DNA from: Caulobacter sp.
Lineage (GTDB): Bacteria; Pseudomonadota; Alphaproteobacteria; Caulobacterales; Caulobacteraceae
Length of the DNA stretch: 64,000 nucleotides
Assembly (NCBI GenBank): GCA_029866155.1
Contig: JARWZW010000049.1
Span: 1 to 64,000, forward strand
Direction of reading: 5' to 3'
In this document: positions 45,262-51,677 of the stretch, in pieces
Layout of the letters: each line of letters begins with the position of its first letter
Numbering within the stretch: the first letter of the stretch is position 1
Program-made: the position numbers and the translations under genes
The notes under the pieces: model-generated
The model's input: the letters and a program-made list of their open reading frames with translations, nothing else
The model's database searches: none
Told to the model about the DNA's origin: nothing

Positions 45262-46137
45262 CTATTGGAACTCGGGCTCGACCCATTCCGGCCAGATATC
45301 GGGCAGGTCGGAGGAAACGCTGTTGGGGTACTGCGGCGCACGCTTCTCGAGGAAAGAGGTCACGCCTTCCTTCGCATCGCCCTGGGCGCCCCGGAACATG
45401 ATGGCCCGGCTGTCGGACTTGTGAGCTTCCATGGGATGGGACGCGCCGGCGTTGCGCCAGAGCATCTGGCGGGTCAGGGCGATACTGACGGGCGCAGTAT
45501 TGTCGACGATCTCGCGGGCCAAGGCGCGCGCCGCCGGCAGCAGGTCATCAGGCTCGTGCAGCGACCGGACCAGACCACCGTCAAGGGCCTCCTGGGCGCC
45601 GAACACCCGGCCGGTATAGCACCATTCCAGGGCCTGCTGCATGCCGACCAGCCGCGGCAGGAACCAGGAGGACGCCGCTTCGGGCGTGATGCCGCGACGG
45701 GCGAACACAAACCCGAACTTGGCGGCCGTGGAGGCCAGGCGGATGTCCATCGGCAGCTGCATGGTGACGCCGATGCCCACGGCGGCGCCATTGATGGCCC
45801 CGATGACCGGCTTCAGGCAGTCATAGATTCGCAGGGTCAGGCGACCGCCGCCATCGCGATAGACGCCGTTGACCTTGCCTGACTCACGGGTGTCGTTGCC
45901 CTGTTTGGCGTAGTCAAACGTCGCGCCGCCGCTGCCGAGATCTGCGCCCGCGCAGAAGGCCCGGCCGGATCCGGTCACGATCACCGCCTTGACCGCGTCA
46001 TCGGCGTCGATAGCGTCAAAGGCGTCGATCATCTCGAGCATCATCTGGCCGGTGAAGGCGTTCATCCGGTCAGGCCGGTTGAGCGTTATGGTCGCGATGC
46101 CGTCTTCAACGGAATAGAGGATGGTTTCGTAGTTCAT
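45262..46137 (-). CDS. Crotonase-fold enoyl-CoA hydratase/isomerase family protein
   Basis: A 291-aa crotonase. ATITLNRPDRMNAF near residue 14 and the oxyanion loop GRAFCAGADLGSGG near 60 are clear. At the first catalytic position of enoyl-CoA hydratases the sequence is AAVGIGVTMQLPMD, without the usual Glu; the second region reads GITPEAASSWFLP and keeps a Glu. This pattern points to an isomerase-like, hydrolase-like or altered activity. AGGAG precedes the ATG. It ends the minus-strand arm of a divergent acyl-metabolism locus, 216 bases after the P450. Confidence 0.9.
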   Translation of the reverse strand: MNYETILYSVEDGIATITLNRPDRMNAFTGQMMLEMIDAFDAIDADDAVKAVIVTGSGRAFCAGADLGSGGATFDYAKQGNDTRESGKVNGVYRDGGGRLTLRIYDCLKPVIGAINGAAVGIGVTMQLPMDIRLASTAAKFGFVFARRGITPEAASSWFLPRLVGMQQALEWCYTGRVFGAQEALDGGLVRSLHEPDDLLPAARALAREIVDNTAPVSIALTRQMLWRNAGASHPMEAHKSDSRAIMFRGAQGDAKEGVTSFLEKRAPQYPNSVSSDLPDIWPEWVEPEFQ

Positions 46138-46353
46138 TTTGCGACTCCTAGGGGCGGTTCAGTGTTTCCTGACGCCCAAGCAATCCTATGGACCCCACGG
46201 AAAGCAAGACGCCCTCATGACTTGGGCTCCATTACGATCCCGATCGGGCGCGATCCCTGGAGATGGCGTGCTTCAGCCCTCGTATCGGGTGCCTGCTGTC
46301 CTTGATATCTAGGCCGCGACGACGCCTCGCGACGGGTCCACGGCCTGTGATCT

Positions 46354-47694
46354 TCAGGCCGCCCGCTGCCCGGGCGTGAAACTGACGCCCAGGCTCCGGA
46401 TCGCATGGACGAAATTGTTCGGCGCAATATCGATCTCGCCGTTCCAGCGGATATCAGGGAACCGGCCCAGCATCTGGCGCCAGGTCTCTTCCAGCTGCAG
46501 CTGGGCGACCCGCTTGCCGATACAGACGTGGGGACCGTAGCCGAAGGCGATATGCTTGTCAGCATTGGCGCGGGTGACATCCAGGCGGTCAGGATCGGCA
46601 AACACCGTCTCGTCCCGGTTGGCGGCTCCGTAATACATGACCACCTTCTGCCCCTCGAGGATGGTCTGGCCGTTGACCACCGCATCCCGGGTCGCCGTGC
46701 GGCGCATGTAGATCACGGGGCTGACCATGCGGATGAACTCGTTGACGGCGCCGGGAAGCAGGCTGGCGTCATTGATCAGCTTCTGCCGCTCGGCCGGATG
46801 TTCGGTCACCAGCTTCATGGACCCGGACAGGGTGTTGCGGGTGGTGTCATTGCCGGCAAAGACGATCAGCAGCCAGGACCCGTCCAGATACTCGTCTGAC
46901 AGCAGCTCCCCCTCGACCTGGGCGCGGGCGATGGCGCTCATGAGGTCCGGCTGGGGGTCGGCACGGCGCTTGTGGAGCATGGCCCGGCCATACTCGAACA
47001 TCTCTTCGACATTGCTGTTGAAGTCCTGGATGAACTGCATCAGCTCCAGGGTCGGCTGGGCCGGCGCGGCGGCCTGCTCCGCCGCCAGGTTCTGGGCCAT
47101 TTCCAGATAATGCATCCATTTCAGGAATTTCGGCCGGTCCTCTGCCGGCACGCCGAGGATCTCGCACAGGGTGAACAGCGGCAACTGCGAGGAAAACGCC
47201 TCGACCATGTCGCATTCGCCCCGCGCCGCCATGGCGTCCAGCAGACGGGTCACCTCAGCTCGGACCTTCAGGGTCAGATCCCGCAGGTAGCCCGGGGTGA
47301 AATAGGGCATATGCTCTCGGCGCAACTGCATGTGGTTTGGTTCGTCCATGTTGATCATGGCGTCCATCGAGGCCCGGTACAGCAGGGCATGCCGGCTTTC
47401 GGGCTTGCCAATGGCCATCAGGATTCCACCCCGCGCCGAACTGAACGTCTCCGGGTCACCATTGACGGTCATGACATCGGCATGGCGGGTCACGGCCCAG
47501 AACCCCGGGCCGCCCAACGGCTCCGGATGCCACATGACCGGCGCCTCGGCCCGCATCCGGGCGAAATCGGCATAAGGCTGGCCCTGCATGAAGCGGCCGA
47601 TGTCCGCCAGATTGACTCCCTCCAGGGTCGGATAGGTCAGGGAACCACCGGGACCGGCACGGCCCTCGACGACGGTCTGGCTAAGCAGCTGCAT
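46354..47694 (-). CDS. Cytochrome P450
   Basis: A 446-aa soluble bacterial P450. The I-helix oxygen-activation motif is FAGNDTTRNTLSG (about residue 278), ExxR is EFIR in the K helix, and the haem-thiolate loop FGYGPHVCIGKRVA places the axial Cys near 389. The start MQLLSQTV was chosen because GGAG lies 6 bases upstream; the longer frame has no signal. It needs ferredoxin partners that are not in this window. With the acyl-CoA ligase and hydratases nearby, a lipid, terpenoid or steroid substrate is likely, though not shown. Confidence 0.93.
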   Translation of the reverse strand: MQLLSQTVVEGRAGPGGSLTYPTLEGVNLADIGRFMQGQPYADFARMRAEAPVMWHPEPLGGPGFWAVTRHADVMTVNGDPETFSSARGGILMAIGKPESRHALLYRASMDAMINMDEPNHMQLRREHMPYFTPGYLRDLTLKVRAEVTRLLDAMAARGECDMVEAFSSQLPLFTLCEILGVPAEDRPKFLKWMHYLEMAQNLAAEQAAAPAQPTLELMQFIQDFNSNVEEMFEYGRAMLHKRRADPQPDLMSAIARAQVEGELLSDEYLDGSWLLIVFAGNDTTRNTLSGSMKLVTEHPAERQKLINDASLLPGAVNEFIRMVSPVIYMRRTATRDAVVNGQTILEGQKVVMYYGAANRDETVFADPDRLDVTRANADKHIAFGYGPHVCIGKRVAQLQLEETWRQMLGRFPDIRWNGEIDIAPNNFVHAIRSLGVSFTPGQRAA

Positions 47695-47773
47695 GGGAGT
47701 CTCCGGCCCGTTTGTTCGGTATTGGGGGTCTAGACTAGGTTGTTCCAGCCGGGCGCCAAGCCGTGACCCCACG

Positions 47774-48505
47774 TCAAAGGCAAAGTCTGTGAGCCGCCAG
47801 CCGGTCATAAAAGGGGCGGGCGGCGTCGGCGATGGCCTGAAGATGGCCGGCAAGCGCCGGTCGGGCTTCGCTGACCGGCGGTGCAAAGCCCGTCGACCGT
47901 TCAACGGCGTCATACCAGGCCGGGGCCCAGACCCCATCGCTGTCGCGAGGGCCGGGCGGCCAGGCCAGCATGGTTTCCGAAAAGGAAATTTGCAACGCCT
48001 CGCACAGCCGGTTCAGCATGGCCCGGGGCGAGGTCAGCACATCGCGCCCCTCGACAACAGGCGGGGCGTGGCCCAGCCGGTCGCATTCACGATCAAAAAG
48101 CTCGGCCTGTCGTTCGAAGCCGATGTCGGCCAGGGTCACATCCTCCCGCTTGACGGCATAGCTGGCCAGGACCGGCTCAGGCTGGCGGATCAGGAAGGCG
48201 TTGCGACAATGGGCCGTCCAGTCGATATCCGCGCCTGGTGGAATATGGTGGGTCATGTGCTTCTGATAGAAGACCTCGGTGCCACTCGGGCCAGGCCCTG
48301 AAAGTGTGCGGATGACCGCGCTCCGGTCAGTGGGCTGCGAGGCCAGGACGGCATCCCGCATCGGATGGTCGAGGCCCGTCTCCAGCAGGTAGGCGGCGTA
48401 GAAGGGCTCGTCGACCACCGCCGTGTCCGGGCGATTCTCGAAGCTGCGCATCATGGCCGTAGAGATGTTGCGGGGGCCTGACCACATGGCGATCCGGATG
48501 GTCAA
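47774..48505 (-). CDS. Sulfotransferase-like P-loop protein
   Basis: A 243-aa protein with the P-loop-like WSGPRNISTAMMRSFENR near residue 8, the position of the PAPS 5'-phosphosulfate loop in sulfotransferases. TAVVDEPFYAAYL and a C-terminal GVWAPAWYDAVERSTGF follow. The same motifs occur, as I recall, in the N-terminal part of plant branched-chain aminotransferase-like proteins. Its ATG overlaps the stop of the class IV aminotransferase-like gene by four bases. Actual sulfotransferase activity is untested for this subgroup. Confidence 0.8.
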   Translation of the reverse strand: MTIRIAMWSGPRNISTAMMRSFENRPDTAVVDEPFYAAYLLETGLDHPMRDAVLASQPTDRSAVIRTLSGPGPSGTEVFYQKHMTHHIPPGADIDWTAHCRNAFLIRQPEPVLASYAVKREDVTLADIGFERQAELFDRECDRLGHAPPVVEGRDVLTSPRAMLNRLCEALQISFSETMLAWPPGPRDSDGVWAPAWYDAVERSTGFAPPVSEARPALAGHLQAIADAARPFYDRLAAHRLCL

Positions 48506-49413
48506 AGGCCGGCCTCACGATCCTTCAGCGCTTCATACAGGCCCCTTAACCGCGCGGTGAGCGGACCCGGAAGTCGTTCGCGCAGGACCCGCCCATCGAT
48601 CTGGCGCACCGGCGTCAAGCCACCGAAGGTGCCAGTCACGAAGGCCTCATCCGCGGCAGCAGGATCCTCCGCCGGATAGTCGCCCAGGGCGATGGGAATG
48701 TCGTTCGACCGGCACAGGGCGATGACATTGGCCCGGGTCACCCCGTTAAAACAGTAGTCACCTCGCGAGGTCCTGACCTGGCCATCCTTGACCCAGAAGA
48801 GGTTGGTGGCGTTACAGCTGGAAACAAAGCCGTGCGGATCCAGCATGATCCCCTCGTCGGCCCCCAGTCGGATGGCCTCCTGCAGGGCGATGATCAGATT
48901 CAGCCGGCTGTGGGAGTTCAGCCGCATGTCGAACATCGAGGCGGGACTGCATCGGATCGATACCGTCGCCAGGGTCAGGCCCTCCGTGACGATGGCGGGA
49001 CTAGGCGATTTCCATTCGGCCAGGATCACCACGGTCGGATTGCCCAGGGCATTGCGCGGGTCCTGGTTGGCCGCCGCCTTGGGACCCCTGGTCACCATCA
49101 GGCGCAGATGGACCCCATCTGTCATCTCATTGGCCGCCAGAAGCTGGTTCAGGGCCTCGACCACGCCCTGCCGGGAGAGGCCAATGTCCAGGTCGATGGC
49201 CGCAGCGCCCGCGAACAGACGGTCCAGATGGGCGTCCAGAAAGACCAGCGTCCGCTTGTGGAGCCGCAGCCCTTCCCAGACCCCGTCACCGACCACGAAG
49301 CCTGCATCGAAGATCGAGACCTTCGCTTCCGATTTCGGAACAAGCGCCCCGTTGAGCCAGACCAGGGCGGTCGCGTTGCGTGGATCAGCGGCGAAATCCT
49401 GACTGCCGGCCAT
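48502..49413 (-). CDS. Class IV aminotransferase-like protein lacking the PLP lysine
   Basis: A 303-aa fold-type IV (BCAT/D-amino acid transaminase) protein: DAGFVVGDGVWEGLR near 38, a Glu in the SSCNATNLFWVKDG segment and GVTRANVIALC near 230. The segment that should carry the Schiff-base lysine reads SPASMFDMRLNSHSRLNLI, with Arg 164 in the place I expect for Lys and no lysine anywhere in it. It may therefore not be a working transaminase. GAGGA precedes the ATG. It is coupled to the sulfotransferase-like gene and divergent from the acyl-CoA ligase. Confidence 0.85.
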   Translation of the reverse strand: MAGSQDFAADPRNATALVWLNGALVPKSEAKVSIFDAGFVVGDGVWEGLRLHKRTLVFLDAHLDRLFAGAAAIDLDIGLSRQGVVEALNQLLAANEMTDGVHLRLMVTRGPKAAANQDPRNALGNPTVVILAEWKSPSPAIVTEGLTLATVSIRCSPASMFDMRLNSHSRLNLIIALQEAIRLGADEGIMLDPHGFVSSCNATNLFWVKDGQVRTSRGDYCFNGVTRANVIALCRSNDIPIALGDYPAEDPAAADEAFVTGTFGGLTPVRQIDGRVLRERLPGPLTARLRGLYEALKDREAGL

Positions 49414-49596
49414 GATAGTCCTCGAACCATTGAAGCCCGCTCCTTAGCGGTTCCGGCCGACCACACCAAATCTGCAGGCGAAACGCCACGTCATTCCTTA
49501 ACGGCGCCCCCTTGAGCCCGCCGTCTGGACGCGCTTCTATCCGACAACTCAACTGAACAACGATAACCGCCCAAGCCGGTGGATCCGAGGAAGCCC

Positions 49597-51135
49597 ATGC
49601 ACCCGACCATTTTCGCCCAGAGCCACCCCGACCGCGCCGCCTATATCATGGCCTCGAACGGCGAGACGGTGACCTACAGGGAGCTGGACGAACGCTCCAA
49701 CCAGGGGGCCCAGCTATTCCGGTCCCTGGGACTGGGGGTCGGCGACGTGATCGCTGTCTTCATGGACAACAATCCCCGCTATTTCGAGATCGCTTGGGCC
49801 GGACAGCGGTCAGGCCTCTACTACACTTGCATCTCGTCCAAACTGACGGCCAGCGAGGTCGAATACATCCTCAAGGACTGCGGCGCGAAGGTGCTGATCA
49901 CGTCGGCGGCCATGGGCGCCGTGGCGGACGAGGTCGCCGCCCTGGCGCCGGACCTCAAGCTCTACATGGTCGGTGGGACACGCGGCCCCTATGAAAGCTT
50001 CGAGGACGCCCGCGCCGCCATGCCCGCCACGCCGATCGCCGATGAGACGGCCGGCTCAGACATGCTCTACTCTTCCGGCACAACCGGACGGCCCAAGGGC
50101 GTCAAGCCCGCCCTGACCGGCGCCCCGATCGATGCGCCCAACGCCCTGCAGATGATGACCCAGGCCCTGTTCGGCTTCCCGGACGGCTGCGTCTATATCT
50201 CTCCTGCCCCGCTGTACCATGCAGCGCCCCTGCGCTGGTGCATGAGCGTCCACAAGCTGGGCGGGACTGTCGTGGTGATGGAGCGGTTCGACCCCGAGAA
50301 CGCCCTGGCCCTGATCGAAAAATACAGGGTTCAGTGCGGCCAGTTCGTGCCGACCCATTTCGTCCGGATGCTGAAACTGCCGGAAGAGGCGCGCAGCCGC
50401 TACGACCTGTCCTCAATGACCTCGGCGGTGCATGCTGCGGCCCCCTGCCCTGTGCCGGTCAAGGAACAGATGATCGCCTGGTGGGGCCCGATCATCCACG
50501 AATACTATGCCGGAACCGAGGGCAACGGCTTCTGCTACATTGGCTCGGCCGACTGGCTGAACCACAAGGGATCCGTCGGCAAGGCTGTGATGGGCGAGCT
50601 TCGCATCTGCGACGAGGAGGGCGATTCCCTGCCGCCGCGGGCCGAAGGTCAGGTCTATTTCGAGAATGGACCGCCGATCAACTACCACAACGACCCGGTC
50701 AAGACCGCCGAGAGCTACAACAAGCACGGCTGGACCAGCCTGGGCGATGTCGGCTGGATGGATGAGGACGGGTTTCTCTATCTGACCGACCGCAAGAGCT
50801 TCATGATCATCTCGGGGGGCGTGAACATTTACCCGCAGGAGATCGAGAACATCCTGGTCACCCATCCCAAGGTGACTGATGCGGCTGTGGTCGGCGGCCC
50901 CGACGAGGAAATGGGCGAAAAGGTCATCGCGGTCATTCAGCCTGCGGACCTGTCAGCCTCCCGCGAGGAACTGGCCGCCGAATTGATGGCCTACTGCCGC
51001 GCCAATCTCAGCCATGTGAAGACCCCCCGGGTCTTCGACTTCATGGACGAACTGCCCCGCCACGCAACGGGCAAGCTCTACAAACGCCTGATCCGCGACG
51101 CCTATTGGGGCAAGTCGGACTCGAAGATCGTCTGA
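49597..51135 (+). CDS. Acyl-CoA synthetase (AMP-dependent ligase)
   Basis: A 512-aa adenylate-forming enzyme that activates a carboxylic acid to its CoA thioester. Motifs: YSSGTTGRPKGV (P-loop, about 158), EYYAGTEGNGF, LGDVGWMDEDGFLYLTDR and the catalytic Lys in ATGKLYKR near the C-terminus. The start MHPTIFAQ was chosen because GAGGAAG lies directly upstream; a GTG six codons earlier is weaker. It heads the plus-strand arm of the divergent locus and is followed by a MaoC hydratase gene. Medium- or long-chain, or a cyclic acid; the substrate cannot be read. Confidence 0.92.
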   Translation: MHPTIFAQSHPDRAAYIMASNGETVTYRELDERSNQGAQLFRSLGLGVGDVIAVFMDNNPRYFEIAWAGQRSGLYYTCISSKLTASEVEYILKDCGAKVLITSAAMGAVADEVAALAPDLKLYMVGGTRGPYESFEDARAAMPATPIADETAGSDMLYSSGTTGRPKGVKPALTGAPIDAPNALQMMTQALFGFPDGCVYISPAPLYHAAPLRWCMSVHKLGGTVVVMERFDPENALALIEKYRVQCGQFVPTHFVRMLKLPEEARSRYDLSSMTSAVHAAAPCPVPVKEQMIAWWGPIIHEYYAGTEGNGFCYIGSADWLNHKGSVGKAVMGELRICDEEGDSLPPRAEGQVYFENGPPINYHNDPVKTAESYNKHGWTSLGDVGWMDEDGFLYLTDRKSFMIISGGVNIYPQEIENILVTHPKVTDAAVVGGPDEEMGEKVIAVIQPADLSASREELAAELMAYCRANLSHVKTPRVFDFMDELPRHATGKLYKRLIRDAYWGKSDSKIV

Positions 51136-51230
51136 GCCCGTCAGGGCAAGCCTGGCTTGAGAGCGATGGCCGCCCGTGGCATGTCGCCTCTCAAGGCCAT
51201 GAAACCGGAACTCCAGGAAGGAATATCGCG

Positions 51231-51677
51231 ATGAAAGAAGTTGCGTACAACGATCTGCACACCTTGGTCGGCCAGGAAGTGGGCGTCAGCGACTGGGTCG
51301 AAATCACGCAGGAGCGTGTGAACCAGTTCGCCGAGGCCACGGGCGACCACCAGTGGATACACGTCGATGTCGAACGGGCGACCCGTGAAATGGGCGGCCC
51401 CATCGCCCACGGCTACCTGACCCTCTCCCTGATCCCGTTCCTCGGCGCCGGCCTGCTGCGCGTCAGCGGCGTGACCCGGGGCATCAACTACGGCTCGGAC
51501 AAGGTGCGCTTCACCAATATGGTCCGCGTCGGAAAGAAGGTGCGCATGCGCCAGAAGCTGCTGGCCGTCGAGGCCAAGGCTGGCGGCCTGCAGATGAAGA
51601 ACGAATGCACCATCGAGATCGAGGGTGAAGAGCGTCCGGCCTGCGTCGCCGAGACGATTTCGGTGATCTACGGCTGA
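51231..51677 (+). CDS. MaoC-family hot-dog-fold dehydratase/hydratase
   Basis: A 148-aa (R)-specific enoyl-CoA hydratase-like protein. The hydratase-2 catalytic stretch ATGDHQWIHVD (Asp and His, about residue 36) and GPIAHGYLTLSLIP are present, and KVRFTNMVRVGKKVR follows. The start MKEVAYND is supported by AGGAAGGA; the frame is open upstream into the ligase gene. It is likely co-transcribed with the acyl-CoA ligase and ends at a strong terminator. Confidence 0.92.
   Translation: MKEVAYNDLHTLVGQEVGVSDWVEITQERVNQFAEATGDHQWIHVDVERATREMGGPIAHGYLTLSLIPFLGAGLLRVSGVTRGINYGSDKVRFTNMVRVGKKVRMRQKLLAVEAKAGGLQMKNECTIEIEGEERPACVAETISVIYG

Follow-up and report, generated by a model that had tools for sequence, protein, structure and literature searches.

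A sulfotransferase-like protein is coupled to a lysine-less aminotransferase-like protein in Pseudomonadota and Planctomycetota

Genomes that encode a sulfotransferase-like protein of the Sulfotransfer_5 family (ST) almost always encode a distinct subfamily of class IV aminotransferase-like protein (AT) as well, and most often the two genes are neighbors. In Pseudomonadota and Planctomycetota, the two phyla that we sampled, this coupling is genuine, widespread, and almost without exception. We examined the pair in the window, by which we mean the whole 64,000-nucleotide stretch of Caulobacter sp. DNA that was analyzed. Because AT is found in nearly every genome with ST that we sampled, the pair is probably an uncharacterised two-part enzyme system. 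The lysine to which PLP would be bound is missing from AT, which is therefore, judging from its sequence, very unlikely to be a conventional aminotransferase. We favor the view, as a reasonably probable one, that ST and AT form a two-protein metabolic module that acts on a single metabolite, with AT as a partner that is not a transaminase.

The gene pair and its distribution

In the window, the open frames on the minus strand place AT upstream and ST downstream (Table 1). The two genes were predicted to overlap by four bases, and they do, as TTGA, with both frames running as predicted. The overlap is not due to chance, because a four-base overlap recurs in 66 of 79 related loci with AT and ST on the same strand (36 with ATGA, 26 with GTGA, and 4 with TTGA, choosing the possible start of ST that is nearest to the stop of AT). 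We took them from 289 related loci, of which we used the best 80; in the 80th, AT is on the opposite strand. The closest locus among the best 80 of 289 is L002, in a record titled Brevundimonas vancanneytii, whose ST is 85% identical to the ST of the window. Judged against L002, both genes are under purifying selection: dN/dS is about 0.10 for ST (dN 0.080, dS 0.80) and about 0.07 for AT (dN 0.048, dS 0.68).

Table 1. Positions of the two genes, their overlap, and selected residues in the window
Feature	Position	Strand	Details
ST, Sulfotransfer_5 family sulfotransferase-like protein	47774-48505	-	243 aa, TTG start; PF19798, 236 bits
AT, class IV fold aminotransferase-like protein without Schiff-base lysine	48502-49413	-	303 aa, ATG start; PF01063, 142.4 bits
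TTGA overlap, 4 bases	48502-48505	-	TGA stop of AT and TTG start of ST
ST residues 8-17, WSGPRNISTA	48455-48484	-	Presumed PAPS 5'-phosphosulfate loop; P11, R12, and S15 in 41/41
ST residues 82-87	48245-48262	-	K82 and H87 in 41/41; candidate catalytic residues, role inferred
ST residues 107-115	48161-48187	-	Presumed PAPS 3'-phosphate site; R107 in 41/41, S115 in 40/41
AT Asn166	48916-48918	-	Position of the Schiff-base lysine, by profile alignment to 5mqz/5cm0
AT Arg65	49219-49221	-	With T226, T260, and T262, putative old PLP phosphate cup, by analogy

Of 398 Pseudomonadota genomes drawn for the search, 38 passed the cut-off for ST, and 37 of these had a strong match; all 37 contain the AT subfamily. 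The remaining genome (G344), which we left out of the 37, passes the cut-off only through a 62-bit paralogue of ST and has no partner from the AT subfamily. There is no match to ST in 4 of the 41 Pseudomonadota genomes that contain AT, so AT also works without ST. Among 149 Planctomycetota genomes, ST was found in 21, and so was the AT subfamily (20 by profile search, plus G519, whose AT is cut by the end of a contig); none of the 149 has the AT subfamily without ST. Across both samples, and with G344 set apart, the AT subfamily is present in all 58 genomes with a strong match to ST, which points to an undescribed reaction.

The AT subfamily is well delimited: its members score 417-489 bits, and no class IV protein outside it that this profile picked up exceeds 290 bits (scoring the best 5 candidates per genome in Pseudomonadota and the best 15 in Planctomycetota). 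Another 13 matches from Planctomycetota, at 273-290 bits, are of the canonical type, and the lysine is kept in all 10 that we read. The p values from Fisher's exact test (5e-48 for Pseudomonadota and 5e-26 for Planctomycetota) should not be taken literally, because the test treats related genomes as independent. The distances between ST proteins are correlated with those between AT proteins (Mantel r = 0.51, 0 of 10,000 permutations, 35 genomes), which ancestry alone could also give.

The second phylum, which we reached through genome G398, was identified as Planctomycetota from the record title of locus L014 and with PLA46, a 16S probe for that phylum. Nine genomes of the G398 draw had a 16S match, and 7 of these contain the exact PLA46 sequence; the exceptions, G436 and G497, had 3 mismatches, and there was no match in G399, which was reached through locus L020. 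Neither EUB338-II nor EUB338-III had an exact match in the 16S tested. SBP_bac_10 was uninformative as a marker for Planctomycetota, with weak matches in 4 of 22 genomes. Because G398 itself may be contaminated, we also counted the Planctomycetota with ST without it (20 genomes). The ST loci of G398 and G399 (L014 and L020) are in records titled Planctomycetia and Phycisphaerales, and their ST proteins are about 70% identical to the ST of the window. The contigs that carry them are probably contaminants from Caulobacterales or mis-binned. The copy of ST in G399 has an in-frame TAG.

The original prediction came with a proposed survey of adjacency, and we find the pair linked far beyond close relatives, across two phyla. 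In the best 80 of the 289 related loci, which are of the alphaproteobacterial type, AT lies upstream of ST on the same strand within 200 bp in 72, within 1 kb in 5, and within 3 kb in 2, so that 79 of 80 have the order AT-ST. Across the 37 Pseudomonadota genomes with a strong match to ST, AT is a near neighbor in 28, and there is no AT in the stretch that was read around ST in the other 9 (3.7 kb, widened to about 13 kb in all but one of these genomes). All nine Pseudomonadota genomes with ST and AT apart belong to one family (f15). In loci from this family that have ST without a linked AT (L122-L129), an MsrA-like gene, identified by reading, is beside ST in 8 of 8.

In Planctomycetota, AT is within 200 bp of ST in 16 of the 20 genomes besides G398 (15 as ST-AT and 1 as AT-ST); in 2 others the distance is 2-3 kb, and in the last 2 AT is outside the stretch. 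The order is ST-AT in 17 of the 18 Planctomycetota loci that show both genes, which is the reverse of the order in the window. Since the order differs between these groups, the coupling outlives rearrangement. Genomes in which the two genes are separated still have both of them (9 of 9 in Pseudomonadota, 2 of 2 in Planctomycetota), with one gene from the AT subfamily elsewhere in each genome. The order to which G505 belongs has four further genomes with ST; AT adjoins ST in three of them and was not found within the 3.7 kb read around ST in the fourth (G551). We found no bacterial ST-AT fusion in the loci that we read: in G551, G554, and G557, which have long open frames around ST, either the matches to ST and AT are in different frames or AT is absent.

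The two proteins

The original prediction described ST as sulfotransferase-like, and this agrees with its predicted fold, which is that of PAPS sulfotransferases, and with its conserved positions, which are the expected ones. ST matches nearly the whole PF19798 model, far above the cut-off of 23.2 bits. Its AlphaFold 2 model (pLDDT 88.2, pTM 0.88) has only sulfotransferases or sulfotransferase-containing proteins among the 50 structural matches listed, of which the best is 4gox (Z = 14.2 over 208 residues, 3.5 Å); for TPST1, Z is 13.5. With Foldseek, the sulfotransferase domains from olefin synthase (4gox) and curacin synthase (4gbm) come first, the further matches include retinol dehydratase, and adenylate kinase and other P-loop kinases appear further down. 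These two domains and the tyrosylprotein sulfotransferases share the fold and the probable PAPS sites of ST, but they are only 12-17% identical to it, and they are parts of synthases or act on proteins. By sequence, the only match to ST in the PDB is not significant (E = 0.84).

The motifs that had been quoted for ST (WSGPRNIST, VVDEPFYAA, and GVWAPAWY...STGF) are all found in the protein from the window. By analogy with other sulfotransferases, we take the WSGPRNISTA loop and R107/S115 to be the sites that bind PAPS. The conservation of these positions (Table 1) was counted across 41 sequences of the main group, leaving out 4 rows of paralogues from the 45. Given its modeled fold and these positions, ST is expected to be a sulfotransferase, with PAPS as the presumed donor.

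PAPS is formed by APS kinase. A strong match to APS kinase is found in 36 of the 37 Pseudomonadota genomes with ST, versus 268 of the 361 others, and in 21 of the 21 Planctomycetota genomes with ST, versus 73 of the 128 others (rows with E above 1e-20 were considered weak, and the counts were made by hand). One genome (G032) contains both ST and AT and has no match to APS kinase.

We know of Sulfotransfer_5 (PF19798), the family that contains ST, as a domain model. It is named in two papers of the open-licence PMC literature, whose passages on it offer no function and no link to aminotransferases. No NCBIfam family matched ST (E up to 0.01). Four divergent Sulfotransfer_5 paralogues (in L113, L119, L120, and L121) are 25-29% identical to the ST of the window, and no match to AT was found in the 8.6-8.7 kb around them. 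As for viral relatives, there were two pattern matches, and neither was confirmed.

The partner of ST had been described as aminotransferase-like, but a function as an aminotransferase is not supported. AT does belong to the aminotransferase fold: its match to PF01063 (Aminotran_4) is well above the cut-off of 28.5 bits, the family models of NCBIfam group it with branched-chain aminotransferases (with no match above any curated cut-off), and its AlphaFold 2 model (pLDDT 87.4) has the class IV fold, with Z from 30.7 to 39.6 to the 50 structures listed. But where class IV aminotransferases have their Schiff-base lysine, the 55 members of the subfamily that we read have asparagine (37) or histidine (18) and never lysine, while the lysine is kept in all 26 class IV proteins outside the subfamily that these searches yielded. 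These 55 are from the 61 subfamily genes that we found; among the other six, those from G222, G334, and G247 have asparagine, and those from G147, G259, and G339 were outside the column count. In a 35-row alignment, whose rows partly overlap the 55, the column has 19 asparagines and 16 histidines. Because the lysine is absent from all 55, we rejected an ordinary transaminase as our main reading, and the aminotransferase label of AT is very probably wrong as to function.

Other positions that would contact PLP vary together with the lost lysine. Members with asparagine have lysine or arginine in place of the old tyrosine and threonine or serine in place of the old glutamate (the N1 position), and members with histidine have leucine or glutamine along with glutamate. 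The AT of the window has arginine and serine. The putative phosphate cup (R65, T226, T260, and T262) does not vary in any of the 35 rows, and 38 columns overall are invariant in these sequences from both phyla; by the anatomy of branched-chain aminotransferases (BCATs), many of these columns presumably lie around the active site. Because the cup is invariant and selection is purifying, AT appears to be repurposed rather than decaying.

The nearest known structure is 7z79, an aminotransferase-like protein from Variovorax paradoxus. It belongs to the same subfamily (52-54% identity) and has asparagine at the position of the lysine; among the 50 structures listed, it is the closest to the AT model (Z = 39.6 over 297 residues). 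By sequence, it matches AT with 326 bits, and the next PDB entry besides its mutant has 166 bits. That mutant, 9j32, is N174K, which falls in the same column of the sequence alignment as Asn166 of AT. Since this mutant was made, the missing lysine had already been noticed by others, whose work is known to us from titles and sequences. The genomes whose stretch around the lysine column is most similar to that of 7z79 are G222 and G334, where AT occurs without ST, after ABC transporter genes. BCATs of fold type IV, from Geoglobus (5cm0/5e25) and Archaeoglobus (5mqz), share the fold (Z = 35.4-35.8) and the phosphate cup with AT, but they keep the Schiff-base lysine, where the AT of the window has asparagine, along with the changes at the tyrosine and glutamate positions.

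In the open-licence PMC literature, 7z79 has only an unrelated mention. Searches of that literature for Variovorax or a lysine-less transaminase gave other enzymes only; PMC12429042 has passages that mention Variovorax, and PMC11673721 has none. With a structure from Variovorax and a wide set of bacterial pairs, the roles of AT and ST can be tested directly.

Possible roles of the pair

If ST and AT form a module, then AT would bind or convert a small molecule that is amino-acid-like or bears a phosphate; the old phosphate cup would hold that phosphate, or else a cofactor that forms no Schiff base. ST would take a sulfo group from PAPS and attach it to that small molecule or to the product of AT. 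In this scheme, we infer the PAPS donor, the shared substrate, the cofactor, and physical contact between the two proteins.

The genes around AT in genomes without ST bear on its ligand. In three of the four AT-only genomes (G222, G334, and G247; loci L251, L252, and L253), AT comes immediately after the gene for the ATPase of an ABC transporter of the polar-amino-acid type, which suggests an amino-acid-like ligand for AT. By reading, two genes for permeases and one for a solute-binding protein are also nearby; in L251, Pfam identifies the ATPase, one of the permeases, and SBP_bac_3, and in L253 it identifies SBP_bac_3. These three AT proteins share the same stretch, LRLNSHS, which lacks the lysine, and the AT of the fourth genome (G280, locus L250) has asparagine in that column. 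An MmgE/PrpD gene is near AT in L251 (by Pfam) and L252 (by reading), and a gene for a P5CR-like reductase is in L253.

One alternative to such a module is that AT is a pseudoenzyme, a non-catalytic partner that binds a ligand and either presents the substrate to ST or regulates it. The loss of the lysine would fit this, as would the loss of the O3' tyrosine and the N1 glutamate in alphaproteobacteria, and so would the near-strict dependence of ST on AT. Against it stand the four Pseudomonadota genomes that have AT without ST, and the 38 columns that are invariant across both phyla, many of them presumably near the active site. We consider this possible but unlikely. It is also conceivable, though we are doubtful, that ST creates a sulfate ester as a leaving group and that AT, with non-covalently bound PMP or PLP, eliminates the sulfate. 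Sulfate is a leaving group in the olefin synthase, curacin, and retinol dehydratase enzymes, and these are the matches near the top of, or elsewhere in, the Foldseek results for ST. The kept phosphate cup of AT is compatible with elimination, as is the N1 glutamate, which is present in 16 of 17 rows from Planctomycetota. There is also a precedent for histidine in place of the lysine: ColD is a PMP-dependent dehydratase with this replacement. But alphaproteobacterial-type AT proteins (37 of the 55) have serine or threonine at the N1 position, and the best Z values hardly differ from one sulfotransferase to another, so the ranking by fold says little about the chemistry of ST.

A more conventional idea is that two ordinary enzymes act in sequence, first a transaminase that relies on a different lysine and then a sulfotransferase. 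A lysine is indeed present at the old tyrosine position in 33 of the 55 AT proteins, and the fold resembles that of true BCATs (Z of about 35). That lysine, however, is replaced by arginine in the window and by leucine or glutamine in the members with histidine, and no column of the 35 rows has an invariant lysine across both phyla, which makes this idea very improbable. Finally, the adjacency might reflect chance or mere inheritance, with no functional relation: kin do share gene order, and ancestry alone can make distances correlate. Given that the pair is found in two phyla and in both orders, and that both genes are kept where they are apart, we find this barely credible.

Returning to the module that we favor, a broader version of it would be that sulfation primes a metabolite for a reaction of the PLP/PMP fold other than transamination, such as sulfate elimination, by a new couple of proteins that is shared by two phyla and fused in plants. 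This is speculative, and we would not expect it to hold.

Relatives in plants and neighboring genes

We believe that the Arabidopsis proteins At3g05190 and At5g27410 have an ST-like domain fused ahead of an AT-like domain and that histidine replaces the lysine in the latter; in the window, these are two genes. As a lead, a provisional plant sequence that is not a database entry matches the ST profile in its first half (216 bits) and the AT profile in its second half (359 bits). Among the loci that we compared, the AT half of this provisional sequence is most similar to L159 from Planctomycetota (64% identity, versus 43% for the best other), and the ST half is most similar to L160, also from Planctomycetota (42% versus 37%). 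ST and AT are adjacent in L160 and L167 and are 2.1 kb apart in L159. If the provisional sequence is correct, then the pair in plants would be a fusion that resembles, of the two bacterial phyla compared, the pair from Planctomycetota. If the plant fusion is right, the same chemistry would occur in land plants, where it would be open to genetics.

In the open-licence PMC literature, we did not find the locus names At3g05190 or At5g27410, any link of branched-chain aminotransferase-like or class IV aminotransferase proteins with sulfotransferases (fused or in plants), or a paper that pairs D-amino acid transaminase with Arabidopsis in this connection. A 2025 survey of plant sulfotransferases (PMC12506393) searched with PF19798 along with other models, and its main text never uses the word aminotransferase.

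We also looked at the neighboring genes for a conserved third gene as a clue to the pathway and rejected this idea: the top identified family, the M24 peptidases, is present in 21 of 92 larger loci. Among the larger loci in L002-L081, an M24 (creatinase/prolidase-like) peptidase is near AT-ST in 20 of 72 (for example, L070:3806-5080). Annotation of individual clusters was limited to those from more than 14 loci, and several of these larger clusters resembled antisense frames of ST and AT. Within the window, genes for a P450, an enoyl-CoA hydratase, a FadD4-like acyl-CoA ligase, and a MaoC-like protein flank the pair (45262-51677). We do not consider these to be members of the module but local context, because only 4-5 of the 72 larger loci have relatives of them close to the pair. 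In the 20 Planctomycetota loci, the most common further neighbor is a sulfatase-type protein, which is found in 4.
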